From contig NZ_WIXO01000001.1 of NCBI RefSeq assembly GCF_009709575.1, positions 1,364,001-1,428,000 of the forward strand: a DNA stretch of 64,000 nucleotides, written 5' to 3'. The notes beneath the pieces were generated by a model. It did not search any database and had not been told where the DNA came from. It worked only from the letters and a program-made list of their open reading frames with translations. The DNA comes from Streptomyces taklimakanensis. Its GTDB lineage: Bacteria > Actinomycetota > Actinomycetes > Streptomycetales > Streptomycetaceae. Shown piece after piece: positions 45,908-52,801 of the stretch. The position numbers and the translations under genes were made by a program. The stretch's first letter is position 1, and each line of letters begins with the position of its first letter.

Positions 45908-45945
45908 TTAACATCGCCGAAACGAACGAGTCATGCCCGAGAAAT
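45908..45945 (+). promoter_or_regulatory. GlnR-type operator upstream of glnA
   Basis: TTAAC-N6-GAAAC-N6-GTCAT-N6-GAAAT matches the actinobacterial GlnR consensus of alternating a/b boxes (gTnAC-n6-GaAAc) with exact 6-nt spacers, placing two adjacent dimer sites about 96-133 bp before the glnA start. This implies nitrogen control of glnA by GlnR (family knowledge plus sequence). Confidence 0.82.
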
Positions 45946-46040
45946 CCCGCAAATCTAAGGTCGGGCGCAGCAGGACGCCACACTGGACTGCCACTCGAGC
46001 TGCCACCCCGTCCCCTCGCGGCGGGACTAGGAGGACTTGG

Positions 46041-47450
46041 ATGTTCCAGAACGCCGACGAGGCAAGGAAATACATCGCGGACAACGACGTCAAGTTCATC
46101 GACGTCCGATTCTGCGACCTGCCGGGCATCATGCAGCACTTCACCATTCCGGTCGAGGTCTTCGACCCGACGGAGCAGCTGATGTTCGACGGCTCGTCGA
46201 TCCGCGGATTCCAGGCCATCCACGAGTCCGACATGGCCCTGGTGCCGGACCTGTCCACCGCGCGCCTCGACCCGTTCCGCAAGGACGCCACGCTCAACGT
46301 CAACTTCTTCATCCACGACCCGATCACCGGCGAGCAGTACAGCCGTGACCCGCGGAACGTGGCGAAGAAGGCCGAGGCGTACCTCGCCTCCTCCGGCATC
46401 GCCGACACCGCGTTCTTCGGTCCGGAGGCCGAGTTCTACGTCTTCGACAGCGTCCGCTTCCAGACCAGCGCGAACGAGTCGTTCTACCACATCGACTCCG
46501 AGGCCGGCGCCTGGAACACCGGCGCCCTGGAGGACAACCGCGGCTACAAGGTCCGCTACAAGGGCGGTTACTTCCCGGCCCCGCCGGTCGACCACTTCGC
46601 CGACCTGCGCGCCGAGATCTCCCTGGAGCTGGCCAAGGCCGGTCTGCAGGTCGAGCGCCAGCACCACGAGGTGGGCACCGCCGGCCAGGCCGAGATCAAC
46701 TACAAGTTCAACACGCTGCTGGCCGCCGCCGACGACCTGATGCTCTTCAAGTACATCGTGAAGAACGTCGCCTGGCGCAACGGCAAGACCGCGACCTTCA
46801 TGCCGAAGCCGATCTTCGGCGACAACGGTTCGGGCATGCACGTCCACCAGTCGCTGTGGTCCGGCGGTGAGCCGCTCTTCTACGACGAGCAGGGGTACGC
46901 GGGTCTGTCGGACACCGCCCGGTACTACATCGGCGGCATCCTCAAGCACGCCCCGTCGCTGCTGGCCTTCACCAACCCGACGGTGAACTCCTACCACCGT
47001 CTGGTGCCCGGCTTCGAGGCCCCGGTGAACCTGGTCTACTCGCAGCGCAACCGCTCCGCCGCGATGCGCATCCCGATCACCGGCTCGAACCCGAAGGCCA
47101 AGCGCGTCGAGTTCCGCGCCCCGGACCCGTCCTCCAACCCGTACCTGGCCTTCTCGGCCCTGCTGCTGGCCGGACTGGACGGCGTCAAGAACAAGATCGA
47201 GCCGGCCGAGCCGATCGACAAGGACCTCTACGAGCTGGCCCCGGAGGAGCACGCGAACGTCCCGCAGGTCCCGACCGACCTGGGCGCCGTCCTGAACGCC
47301 CTGGAGGAGGACAACGAGTACCTGCAGGCGGGCGGCGTGTTCACCTCGGACCTGATCGAGACCTGGATCGACTACAAGCGCACCAACGAGATCGCCCCGA
47401 TCCAGCTCCGTCCGCACCCGCACGAGTTCGAGATGTACTTCGACATCTAA
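46041..47450 (+). CDS. glnA: Glutamine synthetase type I (GSI-beta)
   Basis: 469-aa dodecameric enzyme making glutamine from glutamate, ammonia and ATP. Signatures: [17 protein letters not shown], the ATP site [18 protein letters not shown] and the [13 protein letters not shown] stretch. The adenylylation Tyr is Y397 ([10 protein letters not shown]), so activity is likely controlled by GlnE. A GSI-beta type insertion is present. AGGAGGA precedes the ATG. The upstream GlnR boxes set transcription; a strong terminator follows the stop. Confidence 0.98.
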
Positions 47451-47586: not shown

Positions 47587-48798
47587 TCACCACCACTGGC
47601 CGCGCCCACGCCGAATGCTGCGTCGATGGCCTTCCGGGCACGGTCCCGGCTGTTCGGCAATCAGGTGCGTGTACACACGCAGCGTGAAGCCCGGGTCCGA
47701 GTGGCCGAGGTACTCGGCGAGAGCCCTGATGTTCTCTCCGGCGTCCAGCAGCACCGACGCGTAGTAGTGGCGCAGTGCATGAACGCCGTGTTCCCGCGAC
47801 TCCTTGAACCGCTCTCCCGGCGCGCGCTCGGGGATGACCCCGGCGGAGACGAGAGCAGGCTTCCACAGGTACGCGTTGAAGTAGTTCCAGTTCAGCGCCT
47901 TCCGCTCCCACGAGTAGAACAGCAGCGCGGCCGTGACGGGCGGCCCGGCCGGCGTCTTCCACGGCAGCGTTATCTCAAGAGGCGGTCGCCGGGTGATGTG
48001 CTCGTCCACCGCCTGGGCCACCACATCGGGCAGCGGCACGTCACGCAACTTGCCGCCCTTGGGCGGGGCGAAGACCAAGCGTGAGTCGACCATCTTGACC
48101 TGCCGGACGACGTGGACGACCCCTCCGAGGAAATCGACCTCATCGACCGCCAGCCCGAAAATCTCCCCTTGCCGCAGACCACAACCGGCACCCACATCCA
48201 CGATCGCGGCGTACTGAGCGGGAAGACCGTGCCGGACCGCATGGACACGCTCACGGGTCCACGACTTGAGCTTCCTCGCGTCCAGCTTAGGTGCCTTCAC
48301 CGAACCGGCACGGCAGGGGTTACGGGCGATGATGCCGTCGTCGACGGCCGCGGCGAGCACGGCGGAGACGTTGGCGAACATGACGTGCTGGTAAGACGAC
48401 GTGATGCCGGAGTCTTTCAGCTCGCGGGCCCACGTGCGGATGTGGCCGGGCTGGAAGGCGCTGAGGGAGCGTGAGTCGATGTGCGGGAAGGCGTGCAACC
48501 GGAACCGCAACTCCATGGCTCCCAGGGTGGACGGGGCGGTCGTCCGCGATGCGAGCCACTGCGCGGCGAACTGCTGGAATGTGACTCTTCCCGCCAACGG
48601 GTCGACGTACTACCCACGGGCCATGTCGGCAGCGATCTGCGTCAACCATATTTCGGCGAGGCGCTTTTACTTGTCGGGGAACGACTTGCTGCGCTCGGTG
48701 CTGTCCGGCGCGACGTAACGGTCGCGGTAGCGCATGCCGGTGCCGTAGCGGTCGGTCCTGACGCGGCACGGCTTGCCGTCGAGGCCGGGCTCAGTCAT
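47587..48798 (-). pseudogene. Tyrosine-type site-specific integrase, two in-frame stops
   Basis: Phage/AICE-type tyrosine recombinase of about 403 codons. From the ATG at 48798 (MTEPGLDGKPCR) the frame meets TAA at codon 44 (48667-48669) and TAG at codon 63 (48610-48612), both at positions where homologues usually have Gln (DKQKR and ARGQYVDP), i.e. consistent with C-to-T changes. The rest, including the SAM-like core-binding domain and catalytic R (CGLRQGE), HALRHYY, LGHSD and the nucleophile Tyr (RVYTHL), is intact. The downstream fragment could still be translated from an internal TTG at 48597. It ends 47 bp after the glnA terminator. Confidence 0.85.
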
Positions 48799-49111
48799 GT
48801 ATCAGCGGTCTTGAATGTGGTCTGCCATGCGGTGCGTGATCTCCTCTGGAAGCGCCACAGGACAGGACCGGTGTGGTCCCGCCCTGCGGCGTTGTGCTCG
48901 GTTGGTGGTGGCTAGCGGCCATGTCTGTGGCCATGCGTTCAGCGGCCCAGCGCCGGACGGCTGCGGGGTCGTAGCGCAGGTGCTTACCGACGCAGAATCC
49001 GGGCGGTCTGGTGTGCTTCTTGCGCCAGGCGTAGACGGTCTCCAGGGGGGCGCCGAACAGGTCGGCGATGTCGTCGGGAGTGAGGTAGCGGTCCGGAAGC
49101 CCGGCCCGCAA
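48791..49111 (-). CDS. Excisionase-like HTH protein (start uncertain)
   Basis: C-terminal part of a longer open frame that encodes YLTPDDIADLFGAPLETVYAWRKKH followed by CVGKHLRYDPAAVRRWAAE, the winged HTH pattern of actinomycete excisionases (Xis/MerR-like). The stop overlaps the integrase start by 8 bp, the usual xis-int arrangement. A TTG at 49111 gives 106 aa; no ribosome-binding site is clear, and the frame runs on without a stop into the DUF3631 remnant, so an original start may have been lost. Tail rich in Gly/Pro/His. Confidence 0.55.
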   Translation of the reverse strand: MRAGLPDRYLTPDDIADLFGAPLETVYAWRKKHTRPPGFCVGKHLRYDPAAVRRWAAERMATDMAASHHQPSTTPQGGTTPVLSCGASRGDHAPHGRPHSRPLIHD

Positions 49112-49915
49112 CGTGGTCGTGGCGAATGCCCTGCGGCGGTATCTCCTCCGTGACGCCGATAAAGGCGGAAGCGTCCCTTCTCTGGGGCCCACTACATCCG
49201 CACCGTCGGTGACCTGCGGTGTAACAGCTACAGCGGACTTCGGCGGGGACGGGCAGTACCGCTCCCAGGCGCTGGCTAGGTTCTCGGCGTAGTAACCCCG
49301 CGGCACCCCGGCGGTGGTGCGGACGGGGTGCGGCTTGATGGGCTTGTTGTCCGCAGTGACGTACTCGCCGAGCATCCGCGACAGGCCCCGGGGGGTGAGT
49401 GGCTTGTCGCCCACGTCGCCCCAGGACGCTTCTTCCGTCGCGTTGAGGATGTCGAGGATGACGGCGGTGGGCATCTGGCCGACCTCTTGAAGCGCCTGAT
49501 CACGCAGGCCGGTCAGTAGCCGGATACCCAGCGATGCCTTGTTGTCGTCCTGGACGGCGGTGACCAGCTCCACACACGCAACCCGGGCCCGCTCAACCAG
49601 GCACCTCCGGCCATGTCGGCAACCGCCGAGAGGGGTTCTCAGACGTCGGCGGGCCGTTCGGTGATGCCCTCCGGCATGCAAGCCGCGTCCCCTCCACAGC
49701 CGGGCGGACGGCGGCCCAGGGGCGGTCAGCCGGTCGCGCAGCGCGTGATCCCCCTTCTCGTGAATGCGCCGCCAGAACGCTCGACCTTCTCGTTAGGGGC
49801 GCGGCGGCGCATCCGGATGATGACTGAGCGGGTCAGGGTCGTGTCCGGCAGACTACCGAGGCCAGCGGCGGCCATCGCGCAGTAGGACAAGAGCGCCTGC
49901 ACCGACTGGGTGGCC
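49112..49915 (-). pseudogene. Shattered DUF3631 (primase/helicase-like) gene
   Basis: Pieces of a DUF3631 protein, common in actinobacterial integrative elements, are recognisable in three frames. From upstream (right) to left: AAAGLGSLPDTTLTRSVIIRMRRRAPNE; FWRRIHEKGDHALRDRL after a lost base; ITERPADV-stop-EPLSAVADMAGGAW, where TGG has become TGA; then ERARVACVELV and SLGIRLLTGLRD to AENLASAWERYCPS. At least three frameshifts and one nonsense codon. The 5' part of the gene is missing beyond about 49915. Confidence 0.8.
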
Positions 49916-50193: not shown

Positions 50194-50412
50194 ATGACCA
50201 GCGGCCGCAAGACTCGCATACATCACTCAGACATCCCCAGCCCAAATGGATGTCGGTGGTGTGGGGATTCCCAATATCATCATGGATACCAATGGGTTGC
50301 CTCGGTTGGCCTTCATCTCTGGGAAGCTCCCACACCCGCGCAGCGACTCAAGCGCATGCAGGCGCGGCGTGCGGCACGAGGAGATGTGAAGCGAAATCAA
50401 GCATCCCAGTAG
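50194..50412 (+). CDS. Small putative zinc-binding protein of integrative elements
   Basis: 72 aa starting MTSGRKTRIHHSDIPSP, with CRWCGDSQYHHG (Cys-x2-Cys and two His, likely Zn site) and a C-terminal TPAQRLKRMQARRAAR helix. This short C-x2-C protein pattern is common in Streptomyces mobile elements (recalled). GGAG lies 9 bases before the ATG at 50194. It overlaps the 3' end of the OLD gene by 16 bp, convergently. Function unknown. Confidence 0.6.
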   Translation: MTSGRKTRIHHSDIPSPNGCRWCGDSQYHHGYQWVASVGLHLWEAPTPAQRLKRMQARRAARGDVKRNQASQ

Positions 50413-52262
50413 TGCGGACCAGCGTCTTGAGCTTTACTAACGAGGATGTCAAAGGTTTCAGTAAGGGCAGGGGGGATCCTATCTTTGGTGATTACTGTGG
50501 CAATGCCAGTCATCATGACATCCTTCCCCTTCGGCCCGTAATCAGAGCCTTTTTTGAGCATGTCCAAAACGGCAGAGCTGAACTTCTTCCCACGATGGGC
50601 AGCAAAGTCGTCCGGCGTCCAATACTCATGCCCCCCCTTACGTTTCCAAAGTTCATTGGCAGCATGCGCCCAGTCTTCATCATCGAACAGGTCTTCCAGT
50701 TCATTAGGGAGACCAATGTAGTGACACTCGCGCTGCAGGTCGAACCCGTATTCCTTAAGCTTGTCATCCCGGAATGTCTTTTTGTTGTTGGTGCGACTAT
50801 CCTTGTCGACCACGAAGGCGACGTTCCTTTTGTGAGATTTCAAAAACCGTGCGAATTTAAGCGCCCCTTCGTTGTTCCCTCCATCCCAGAGGCAGATTCC
50901 CACAGACTGAATAGGGACGCCAGCGTATTTCTTGAAAAGGATTGGGAAGGCCGCCATCTCGGAAGGGCCCTCCACGGCAACAAAGAACCGTTCATGCAAA
51001 AGCACGCTGTTCCTGAAGCCTAGCGCTGTAGCGATGGTCGAGAGGTGCCTTCGTACTTCCTCGTCTTTACTCTCATCGGAGAGCAGCTCAGCGTAAGTTC
51101 CTTCCTCCGACACGCGAAGATGCACCACGTTGGCAATGTCAACTCCATCAATCAAGTTCATAGAATGCGTTGCTACGACCACCCGGGCATTGGGCCGTGC
51201 GGACTGTTCATGAATGAGGTTCATGACACGCCGCTGATGCTCATAATCGAGATGAGTATCCGGCTCATCATAAACAAATACTACATCTGTATCCCTGCTC
51301 TCTCCGCCACTGCCCTCATCGTCTTTATTGCTGCCGAGTACCTGACTGCTACTTTCCCAAAGCGCCAGCGAGATCCTACGCGACCTCCCTGTACCAGCGG
51401 CAGATAGTGGCACCTCATGGCCGTTCCTGTTTGCCACCCTGACTTCGACCCCGGCCAGAGAAGGACGAACCTGTACCTGAGGGTTGAGCCGAAGGGCAGA
51501 AAACCCGCACCTCTTCATAACATGCTTACGGATGTGGTCAATATCGGCGACCAGCGAATCCGCCAGATGATCTTCTAGTTCAGTAATCCTTTTCTGTGAG
51601 GACTCACTTTTGCTGTACTCCCTCAGCTTCGAATTGAGGATGCTTTGCACAACAATTTCAGGCGCTTGCACAGCATCACCTTTGAAGTACACCACCACAG
51701 GCAAGCGCCCTGCTAGGGCGTTAGAAACAGGTACCCATTCCTCCACGGTCGGCATTCCTTCAGCTAGTCGAGCTAGAGGAGTCGTCCAACTTTCCCGGGC
51801 GTTTGCACGTCCAACCGGCTGGATGTTGTACTTGGCTGCGACTTCCTTAAGGCGGGCTATTTTTTCTGATTCGATATTGCGCAATTCTTCGACTTCGCAG
51901 ACACTCATCCTTACTTCAAGATGAGAGCCTTCATCAGGGCTGTAACGTCTGCGAATTTTGACAAGTTCCGAAAGGCCGAGTTCCACACGTTCCGACTGGC
52001 TAAGTTGAAAAGTCCCGGTTACTACGATCTGCTTTACAGTCACCGCAGGCTGCTGGTCATCACTATCGGAAGGTGCCGCCGACAGTTGCGACAGATCATG
52101 CTCGGACGGCTCTTTCCCTGAAATCAAGAAATTAAGAGCATCCAACAGTGCACTCTTTCCACCGTCATTCTGCCCGGTAATGATTGTCTGGTTTTTGATG
52201 GGCACGAATGAAACATTGAAGAGGGAGCGAAATCCCTCAACAGAAATGTCGCAGATCTGCAT
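50397..52262 (-). CDS. OLD-family ATPase-TOPRIM endonuclease
   Basis: 621 aa, single polypeptide. N-terminal ABC/SMC-like ATPase: Walker A GQNDGGKS (30-37), signature-like AAGTGRSRR (288-296), Walker B VFVYDEPD (328-335) and H-loop His366 (VATHSMN). C-terminal TOPRIM nuclease: E431 (AVEGPSE), the acidic pair D486/D488 (VVDKDS) and GLPNELEDLF. This is overcoming-lysogenization-defect (OLD) architecture, relatives of which (OLD, GajA of Gabija) act as anti-phage nucleases. No UvrD-like helicase (Gabija partner) lies next to it. GAGG precedes the ATG by 7 bases. Upstream by 89 bp is a KTSC-domain gene on the same strand. Lower-GC codon use than the flanking core genes indicates acquisition. Confidence 0.9.
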   Translation of the reverse strand: MQICDISVEGFRSLFNVSFVPIKNQTIITGQNDGGKSALLDALNFLISGKEPSEHDLSQLSAAPSDSDDQQPAVTVKQIVVTGTFQLSQSERVELGLSELVKIRRRYSPDEGSHLEVRMSVCEVEELRNIESEKIARLKEVAAKYNIQPVGRANARESWTTPLARLAEGMPTVEEWVPVSNALAGRLPVVVYFKGDAVQAPEIVVQSILNSKLREYSKSESSQKRITELEDHLADSLVADIDHIRKHVMKRCGFSALRLNPQVQVRPSLAGVEVRVANRNGHEVPLSAAGTGRSRRISLALWESSSQVLGSNKDDEGSGGESRDTDVVFVYDEPDTHLDYEHQRRVMNLIHEQSARPNARVVVATHSMNLIDGVDIANVVHLRVSEEGTYAELLSDESKDEEVRRHLSTIATALGFRNSVLLHERFFVAVEGPSEMAAFPILFKKYAGVPIQSVGICLWDGGNNEGALKFARFLKSHKRNVAFVVDKDSRTNNKKTFRDDKLKEYGFDLQRECHYIGLPNELEDLFDDEDWAHAANELWKRKGGHEYWTPDDFAAHRGKKFSSAVLDMLKKGSDYGPKGKDVMMTGIATVITKDRIPPALTETFDILVSKAQDAGPHYWDA

Positions 52263-52351
52263 TTACTACCTCGATCATCCCTATATAAAGATTCCCGTTT
52301 ACGTGCGGCCGGAATCGCCCGCATGGGGATTCACCCTAAGCTGCCCCTGCG

Positions 52352-52801
52352 TTAAACTTCCCCTTGGGTTGACGGATGCACTTTTTGGTATGGATACTTT
52401 CCCTTTACGAATTGATGAAAGTACTTTCCCTTGCTGCCTGCAGCCATCAACTCCGCGTACAGATGATTCGGGACTCCGCGATACTGGTAGACCGCGCCGC
52501 TTTGAAAGCGAATTTCAAGGAGATCTTCGCCAGGGTCATACCCAACCGAAGACAGATGTGACGAGATAACGACCTGATGCAACATCAACCCCCCTGGGCT
52601 TGTGAGTAGTTCACCAGCCAACAAGGGAACGATGGTAGCACCGGAACGGCTAGCCCCAAGAGCCTCAAAGGTTCCAAGGTCGATGCCATTCCCACTCGCG
52701 GGAGCCTGAATACCCGAATTCGAACAAACAATCGCACTGAGGGTCTTCGCCGCCTTCATGTCAGTCTGGGGCGCGAAACCATAGACAACACGGGCCACCA
52801 T
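52352..52801 (-). CDS. KTSC-domain protein, probable partner of the OLD nuclease
   Basis: 149 aa. Residues about 75-140 are a KTSC domain: VISSHLSSVGYDPGEDLLEIRF, the central YxY motif VYQYRGVP, and the SKGKYFHQFVKGKYPYQKV end. The family is predicted to bind RNA or nucleic acid (it is named for a lysyl-tRNA synthetase C-terminal domain). The N-terminal 70 residues match nothing I recognise. The ATG at 52801 has TTGGAG eight bases upstream; an internal ATG at 52585 with AGGGGGG would give only the 77-aa KTSC domain. It precedes the OLD gene on the same strand by 89 bp and is likely co-transcribed. Confidence 0.72.
   Translation of the reverse strand: MVARVVYGFAPQTDMKAAKTLSAIVCSNSGIQAPASGNGIDLGTFEALGASRSGATIVPLLAGELLTSPGGLMLHQVVISSHLSSVGYDPGEDLLEIRFQSGAVYQYRGVPNHLYAELMAAGSKGKYFHQFVKGKYPYQKVHPSTQGEV

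Follow-up and report, generated by a model that had tools for sequence, protein, structure and literature searches.

Nucleases of the OLD family, in which an N-terminal ABC-type ATPase is followed by a C-terminal TOPRIM domain with acidic metal-binding residues, are known from work on lone genes, on Gabija and on retrons. In Class 1 OLDs, such as P2 Old and the Thermus scotoductus enzyme, ATPase and TOPRIM form a single chain; the available portions of a review (PMC10568477) describe each of these as one gene with no other candidate defence gene close by, and do not settle whether other proteins associate with it. The locus described here, from Streptomyces taklimakanensis (contig NZ_WIXO01000001.1, positions 1,364,001 to 1,428,000; the whole of this 64,000-nucleotide stretch is our window), encodes such an OLD nuclease in the company of two small genes: one for a KTSC-domain protein, directly upstream on the same strand, and one, facing OLD tail-to-tail, for a predicted zinc-ribbon-like protein. 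An OLD family with a near-constant convergent partner, and with KTSC as an optional add-on, provides a direct test of the Class 1 association question. We put it at an even chance that the three genes form an anti-invader module in which OLD cuts, the small protein restrains it, and KTSC serves as an adaptor, with phages or other invading DNA as the likely target.

Comparison with known OLD systems

The OLD gene (50397..52262, minus strand) is a single uninterrupted frame of 621 amino acids (aa). Its product matches Pfam AAA_15 (1.6e-20) and OLD-like_TOPRIM (6e-7)—AAA_21 and SMC_N also score—and the PADLOC models mad3, GajA, AriA and Old. The TOPRIM stretch, residues 428–488 (50799..50981, minus strand), is evident from both Pfam and alignment and contains VAVEGxxE and DKD motifs. 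Across 40 aligned sequences G35/K36, D332/E333 and H366 are invariant, as are E431, E435, D486, D488, E521, E523 and K560 on the TOPRIM side; the motifs to which we assign these residues, and those we regard as catalytic, are presumptive. An intact nuclease with its ATPase and TOPRIM motifs had been claimed for this locus in the original prediction, and the claim holds; the enzyme is probably active.

An AlphaFold2 (AF2) model of the protein has a mean pLDDT of 76.6 and a pTM of 0.55. Its nearest folds in the Protein Data Bank (PDB) are GajA, the T. scotoductus OLD and the retron-Eco8 effector, all at whole-chain TM scores of only 0.30–0.38. The T. scotoductus OLD (PDB 6p74), of Class 1, is also the top match in sequence. 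Members of Class 1 are described as lacking partners, whereas the family of the window has a near-constant convergent one and, in one clade, KTSC as well. GajA (8x5i), the Class 2 OLD of Gabija (GajA–GajB), is the top structural match (E 3.6e-16), but no UvrD-type GajB is present among the 16 window open reading frames (ORFs) scanned with Pfam. Retron-Eco8 (9lpa) has a Class 3 OLD effector of similar architecture, but no reverse transcriptase occurs among these ORFs, and Rfam, which does not hold every retron RNA, has no match at all between 45500 and 58500. The ATPase and TOPRIM of the window share one frame, and no DUF4435 partner is found among the ORFs scanned, at variance with PARIS (Class 4). 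The absence of all three partners, UvrD, reverse transcriptase and DUF4435, agrees with the earlier reading of the locus.

KTSC itself has known ATPase company. In SIR2-HerA systems, which we take to be those named Nezha, the ATPase gene is followed by KTSC in seven plasmid loci, and a KTSC domain ends the HerA of PDB 8wiv; the window differs in having no SIR2 or HerA among its scanned ORFs and a KTSC gene that precedes, instead of follows, the ATPase gene. Systems of HerA, a DNA-binding KTSC protein and an endoDNase are mentioned as unpublished observations in the accessible part of PMC9503650. They, too, couple KTSC with an ATPase and a nuclease, but the ATPase is HerA, the nuclease is separate, and that part describes no small zinc-ribbon gene. 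On the features tested in its sequence, then, the locus lies outside the definitions of Gabija, retrons, PARIS and SIR2-HerA. An OLD system with these partners looks to be absent from the literature searched: what was accessible on KTSC, on OLD and Streptomyces operons, and on OLD classes, a body in which subscription papers and preprints are mostly uncovered, mentions neither a KTSC-OLD pairing nor a convergent partner.

The convergent gene

The gene that keeps most constant company with this OLD family runs toward it from the other side. In the window it encodes 72 aa on the plus strand (50194..50412), and its 3' end overlaps that of OLD by 16 bp (50397..50412). A profile built from it finds a match antisense at the OLD tail in 77 of 78 loci. 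These loci, L022–L099, come from a profile scan of 100 neighbourhoods, include some near-copies, and are the basis of our OLD locus counts; L100 is omitted because it is not a true OLD relative. The sole locus lacking a match, L094, is from a metagenome-assembled genome and has OLD in two frames. Overlap of the two 3' ends is found in 72 of 76 usable loci, with a median of 22 bp, and the other four have gaps of up to 17 bp; L098 was left out of this count on account of a broken OLD frame, and for the same cause the value for L093 is rough. The gene is present, too, in all 11 plasmid OLD loci (L188, L189, L194 and L221–L228) and in one record labelled as phage. In draws of 295 genomes, scored at 19 candidates per genome, the 17 top matches to the small protein are the 17 OLD loci. 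The original prediction described a module of two genes, the only ones to survive in the island. Neither statement can stand: a third gene is intact, and it, rather than KTSC, is the constant partner.

The small protein matches phrog_20506 (2.5e-16) and follows the pattern NGCRWCG...H...H.W..PT..QR..RM.ARR. Fourteen columns are invariant in 28 sequences, among them C20, C23, H30, H41, W43, P46 and T47, and from the C-x2-C...H...H pattern alone the protein is predicted to bind zinc. Its AF2 model (mean pLDDT 80.6) comprises a beta-hairpin and a long helix rich in arginine. A second, weaker relative (1.4e-10) is encoded in the same genome (G000:C1:3318317-3318460, minus strand), far from OLD; this genome has one OLD of the family only.

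All three genes are under purifying selection. The median dN/dS is 0.12 for OLD (26 of 36 pairs computable) and 0.25 for KTSC (37 of 45 pairs), which confirms for both the selection first proposed. The small gene has a median of 0.26, computed from 11 of 15 pairs among the 6 of 10 sequences that its search pattern caught. In 12 loci, the distance matrix of OLD correlates with that of KTSC at 0.96 and with that of the small protein at 0.82. We read these values as common inheritance rather than contact, because shared ancestry alone can yield them.

Because the small gene faces OLD, the two transcripts probably overlap at their ends. Such an arrangement could also suit an addiction pair of the toxin-antitoxin kind, without anti-phage role, in which OLD is toxic and either the small protein or the overlapping transcript is the antidote. 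The near-constant one-to-one pairing, the frequent 3' overlap, and the presence of the genes on plasmids and in islands are what this account would predict. Toxin and antitoxin genes are usually co-directional, though, whereas these converge; OLD is large for a toxin; and the defence company that KTSC keeps would go unexplained. On balance an addiction pair seems to us distinctly improbable.

The KTSC gene and its start

The KTSC domain (PF13619) matches at 8.7e-23, with 80.3 bits against a Pfam cut-off of 25, and the gene ends 89 bp before the start of OLD, both on the minus strand, as first reported. What has to be amended is the other end of the gene. The frame was originally taken from 52801, giving 149 aa, a start that we reject: the upstream part has no conservation among relatives. 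As a database query, this long frame retrieves a single protein covering 48% of it, in a search that skips proteins shorter than ~82 aa. In 11 relatives KTSC is 71 aa long and starts at a codon aligned with ATG 52585, preceded by a GGAGG-like site; the window has a comparable AGGGGGG, resembling a ribosome-binding site, at 52589–52595. In three loci that are near-copies in different strains (G019, L024 and L188), the frame is interrupted by a stop codon five codons before the aligned start. Five relatives have ~20 further codons upstream in common, to which the window has no match. The true start is thus very likely ATG 52585, which leaves a coding gene of 77 codons and a stop (52352..52585, minus strand).

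The remaining upstream part (52586..52801, minus strand), judged non-coding by eye from the alignment of relatives, is more likely promoter and leader, because a TATTAT-like hexamer is kept ~44–46 nucleotides (nt) before the KTSC start in most relatives. The window has TACCAT (52632–52637) where the relatives, again by eye, show hexamers like TATTAT, TATCAT or TACTAT. Two KTSC genes elsewhere are damaged: in L029 the frame is shifted near its end, and in L081 an insertion element splits it.

Recurrence of the KTSC-OLD pairing

KTSC lies directly upstream of OLD in all 13 loci of the clade whose OLDs are 57% or more identical. These are the window, eight loci on genome contigs (57–60% identity), G019 and three linear Streptomyces plasmids. 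The gap between the genes is 47–53 bp in the 11 relatives measured, L029 standing outside the measurement, and 89 bp in the window. Since the two genes share a strand, with KTSC ahead of OLD at these short distances, they are probably co-transcribed. In a midpoint-rooted tree of 70 OLD sequences, some of whose long branches were flagged, the nine rows entered with KTSC upstream form one clade with support of 100/99. Six loci with in-frame stops are excluded from this tree (L027, L031, L042, L043, L082 and L093), and L050 (a copy of L049), L090, L094 and L098 are also absent from it.

The adjacency, then, is not peculiar to one genome, nor to one clade. In three loci of Pseudonocardiaceae type, L052 and L081 (both labelled Lentzea) and L086 (labelled Nocardia), KTSC lies downstream of OLD instead, past the small gene; these three occupy two positions in a group of 13 rows that has weak support (93/77), and may reflect one gain with losses. 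G222 and G379 have a KTSC gene that runs across the stop codon of another OLD, of a markedly different kind, which scores just 21–23 bits against the window-OLD profile (in G222, AAA_15 5e-35 and TOPRIM 7e-16). This distant OLD is carried by 19 of 384 genomes searched and has the overlapping KTSC in 2 of the 19. Because KTSC also occurs downstream of OLD relatives and overlaps a different OLD, the association probably has more than one origin. Of 295 genomes from the genus just 7 have KTSC, so repeated adjacency to OLD by luck is negligible. Of these seven KTSC genes, two have a window-type OLD as neighbour, one has the second OLD, one has a gene resembling PDC-M48B, and three are in runs of phage-like genes, the runs being called by eye.

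KTSC is not seen in 67 of the 78 OLD loci, six of which end 0.4 kb or less from OLD on one side, and none was found in the 44%-identity OLD clade at full search sensitivity. OLD, it follows, can do without KTSC. It might even do without both companions: a stand-alone OLD of the Class 1 type could suffice for defence, with KTSC and the small gene as passengers that share its mobility. The scarcity of KTSC fits such an account, as does the membership of the small protein in a wider family found in mobile-element-like settings; and YbjD, a lone OLD of Escherichia coli, gives anti-phage phenotypes on induced expression, according to the accessible part of PMC13261556. Passengers would hardly be expected, however, to keep the tail-to-tail arrangement in 77 of 78 loci across many genera, when the OLDs themselves are just ~35–60% identical, or KTSC to settle beside two distinct OLD families, or both small genes to be under purifying selection. 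We consider this explanation unlikely.

Among doubtful or broken copies, L065 is a contig labelled Vibrio cholerae with an OLD and small gene of actinobacterial type, probably through contamination or mislabelling; in L228 an IS630 lies between the parts of a broken OLD, and in L027 OLD contains a stop. Seventeen pattern matches in IMG/VR contigs yielded no confirmed OLD.

KTSC in other settings

KTSC repeatedly accompanies ATPase defence genes: those of two OLD families, of SIR2-HerA, and, as a fusion, HerA itself. Plasmids give the fullest picture. Of 44 records, 16 loci were viewed: seven are SIR2-HerA-KTSC, three are KTSC-OLD, one has KTSC after E2 and ThiF, one has it before an nSTAND3 gene, and four are unclear. 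This sample leans to defence, because the search started from a KTSC already linked to defence, and because plasmids are mobile. In the seven SIR2-HerA operons (L190, L191, L193 and L195–L198) KTSC is the third gene, overlapping HerA or lying no more than ~30 bases away, and the hosts span five proteobacterial orders. PADLOC confirms both SIR2 and HerA in the two loci of the seven tested, at 1.7e-160 and 1.7e-163 in the E. coli locus. A near-mode search of 5426 E. coli genomes found this arrangement once, in the query's own plasmid. No paper describing the HerA of PDB 8wiv, with its C-terminal KTSC, was found in the literature search, and the HerA-DUF4297 paper does not contain the word KTSC.

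As for what KTSC does, the available text of one paper, concerned with jumbo phages, calls it RNA-binding (PMC7824862), and that of another calls its function unknown, possibly RNA-binding (PMC8541194).

Several further settings were encountered. In L186, a Halorubrum plasmid, a prokaryotic E2 gene lies upstream of a ThiF-type E1 gene, whose end overlaps KTSC, and two more haloarchaeal matches (H5 and H8) list KTSC with ThiF. In L108:6734-7889, KTSC lies downstream of the gene for a protein that looks like a metallo-beta-lactamase and matches PADLOC PDC-M48B (1.8e-18). It is beside a Vsr-type mismatch endonuclease gene in L164:937-1707, and ~1.5 kb from a UvrD and AAA pair in L187, one of the unclear plasmid loci.

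Replicon ends

All 11 plasmids found with a window-type OLD are linear, and on nine of these Streptomyces plasmids OLD is within 20 kb of a telomere, where uniform placement would give 1.6 (P 2e-7). On genome contigs, OLD is near an end in G019, G108 (both ends), G136 and G355, but not in G000, G083 or G311. Flanking genes point in a similar direction. SbcD is encoded in the fetched flanks of 19 of 89 OLD loci, for example among L041, L042, L062, L064, L223 and L225, with SbcC-type ATPases following in the last two, and an HA-domain helicase is encoded in 22 of the 89. This is a DNA-end-processing neighbourhood.

It might be supposed, then, that the module belongs to the ends of linear replicons, where OLD and nearby SbcCD or helicase would have a part in processing DNA ends or protecting them, or else in conflicts of linear plasmids with chromosomes, with phage defence secondary. 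Helicase genes of the ttrA type mark many replicon ends (PMC8743542, as far as its text was available), and P2 Old and the T. scotoductus OLD are 5'-3' exonucleases by the account of the review cited above (PMC10568477), both in keeping with such a role. The OLD of the window, on the other hand, is 1.41 Mb inside its contig, and those of G083 and G311 are mid-contig; OLD relatives are spread over many genera, and linear replicons are not to be assumed in all of these; and Streptomyces ends gather mobile DNA of many kinds. A role at replicon ends is the chief rival to our reading, but strikes us, on this evidence, as improbable.

Proposed mechanism

If the three genes do form an anti-invader module, cutting would fall to OLD as an ATP-gated nuclease. 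The predicted zinc-ribbon protein, bound either to DNA or to OLD itself, would restrain the enzyme, and recognition of a trigger by the ATPase would depend on KTSC as adaptor. KTSC is placed on the ATPase side because the ATPase, and not the effector, is common to its OLD and HerA partners. That KTSC touches the ATPase, that control runs in the direction given, and that the target is invading DNA, we infer.

Several observations weigh against this proposal. The ThiF-associated KTSC does not sit neatly with placement on the ATPase side. Nor is KTSC limited to defence settings: it is carried by 53 phage records, the three phage-like runs make up almost half of the cases in the genus, and four of the 16 plasmid loci viewed are unclear. 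In a class-wide draw of 296 genomes, 32 have KTSC, 19 of one family with neighbours that look ordinary by eye, and a search of 1.5 kb on either side of its 28 new KTSC loci found no window-family OLD. The small protein is not confined to OLD either: 25 of its 42 matches in the 295-genome draws are weaker and away from window-type OLD, and the 15 of these that were viewed have, by eye, mobile-element-like surroundings and no evident OLD. The PDB, moreover, has nothing that matches its fold at E 0.001 or below. The many OLD loci in which KTSC is not seen count here, as does the crowding of plasmid copies near telomeres, which makes another role possible. So does the archaeal OLD Cran1, whose role, in the accessible part of PMC12796447, is in the cell cycle and apparently not in antiviral defence.

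A wider version of the proposal is conceivable, although we hold it more doubtful than sound: that KTSC, OLD and zinc ribbon represent a new multi-gene class of OLD immunity, that KTSC is a swappable trigger-recognition subunit of ATPase defence systems that differ in mechanism (two OLD families, SIR2-HerA, the HerA fusion, and possibly E1-E2 and STAND), and that the OLD branch has the small protein as its obligatory control subunit. Were KTSC indeed a module common to OLD and SIR2-HerA, its ligand would partly explain how invaders are sensed in several unrelated systems.

Surroundings of the locus

Past OLD, the window continues with the small gene, the fragment of a DUF3631 gene, what is left of an integrase and, last, a gene for glutamine synthetase (45933–47450); on the other side, Pfam finds ordinary metabolic genes. 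The locus had been described as a decayed island, which is partly supported. The tyrosine-integrase remnant (47587..48597, minus strand; PF00589 1.7e-16) has its tail in a different frame, recognised by what we take to be the motif of such tails. The DUF3631 fragment is followed by an HTH_17/excisionase-like part (48791..49681, minus strand; both from profile matches), and its own match is incomplete: of the 182 positions in the DUF3631 profile, the first 73 are missing. ARAGORN found no transfer RNA gene in the window that might serve as an anchor. An attachment repeat at the 3' end of the glutamine synthetase gene was considered and rejected, no exact 16-mer repeat being found there; the search gave two weak repeats, both elsewhere. 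The modules of L027 and L028 adjoin a glutamine synthetase gene as well, which suggests that all three share an insertion spot.

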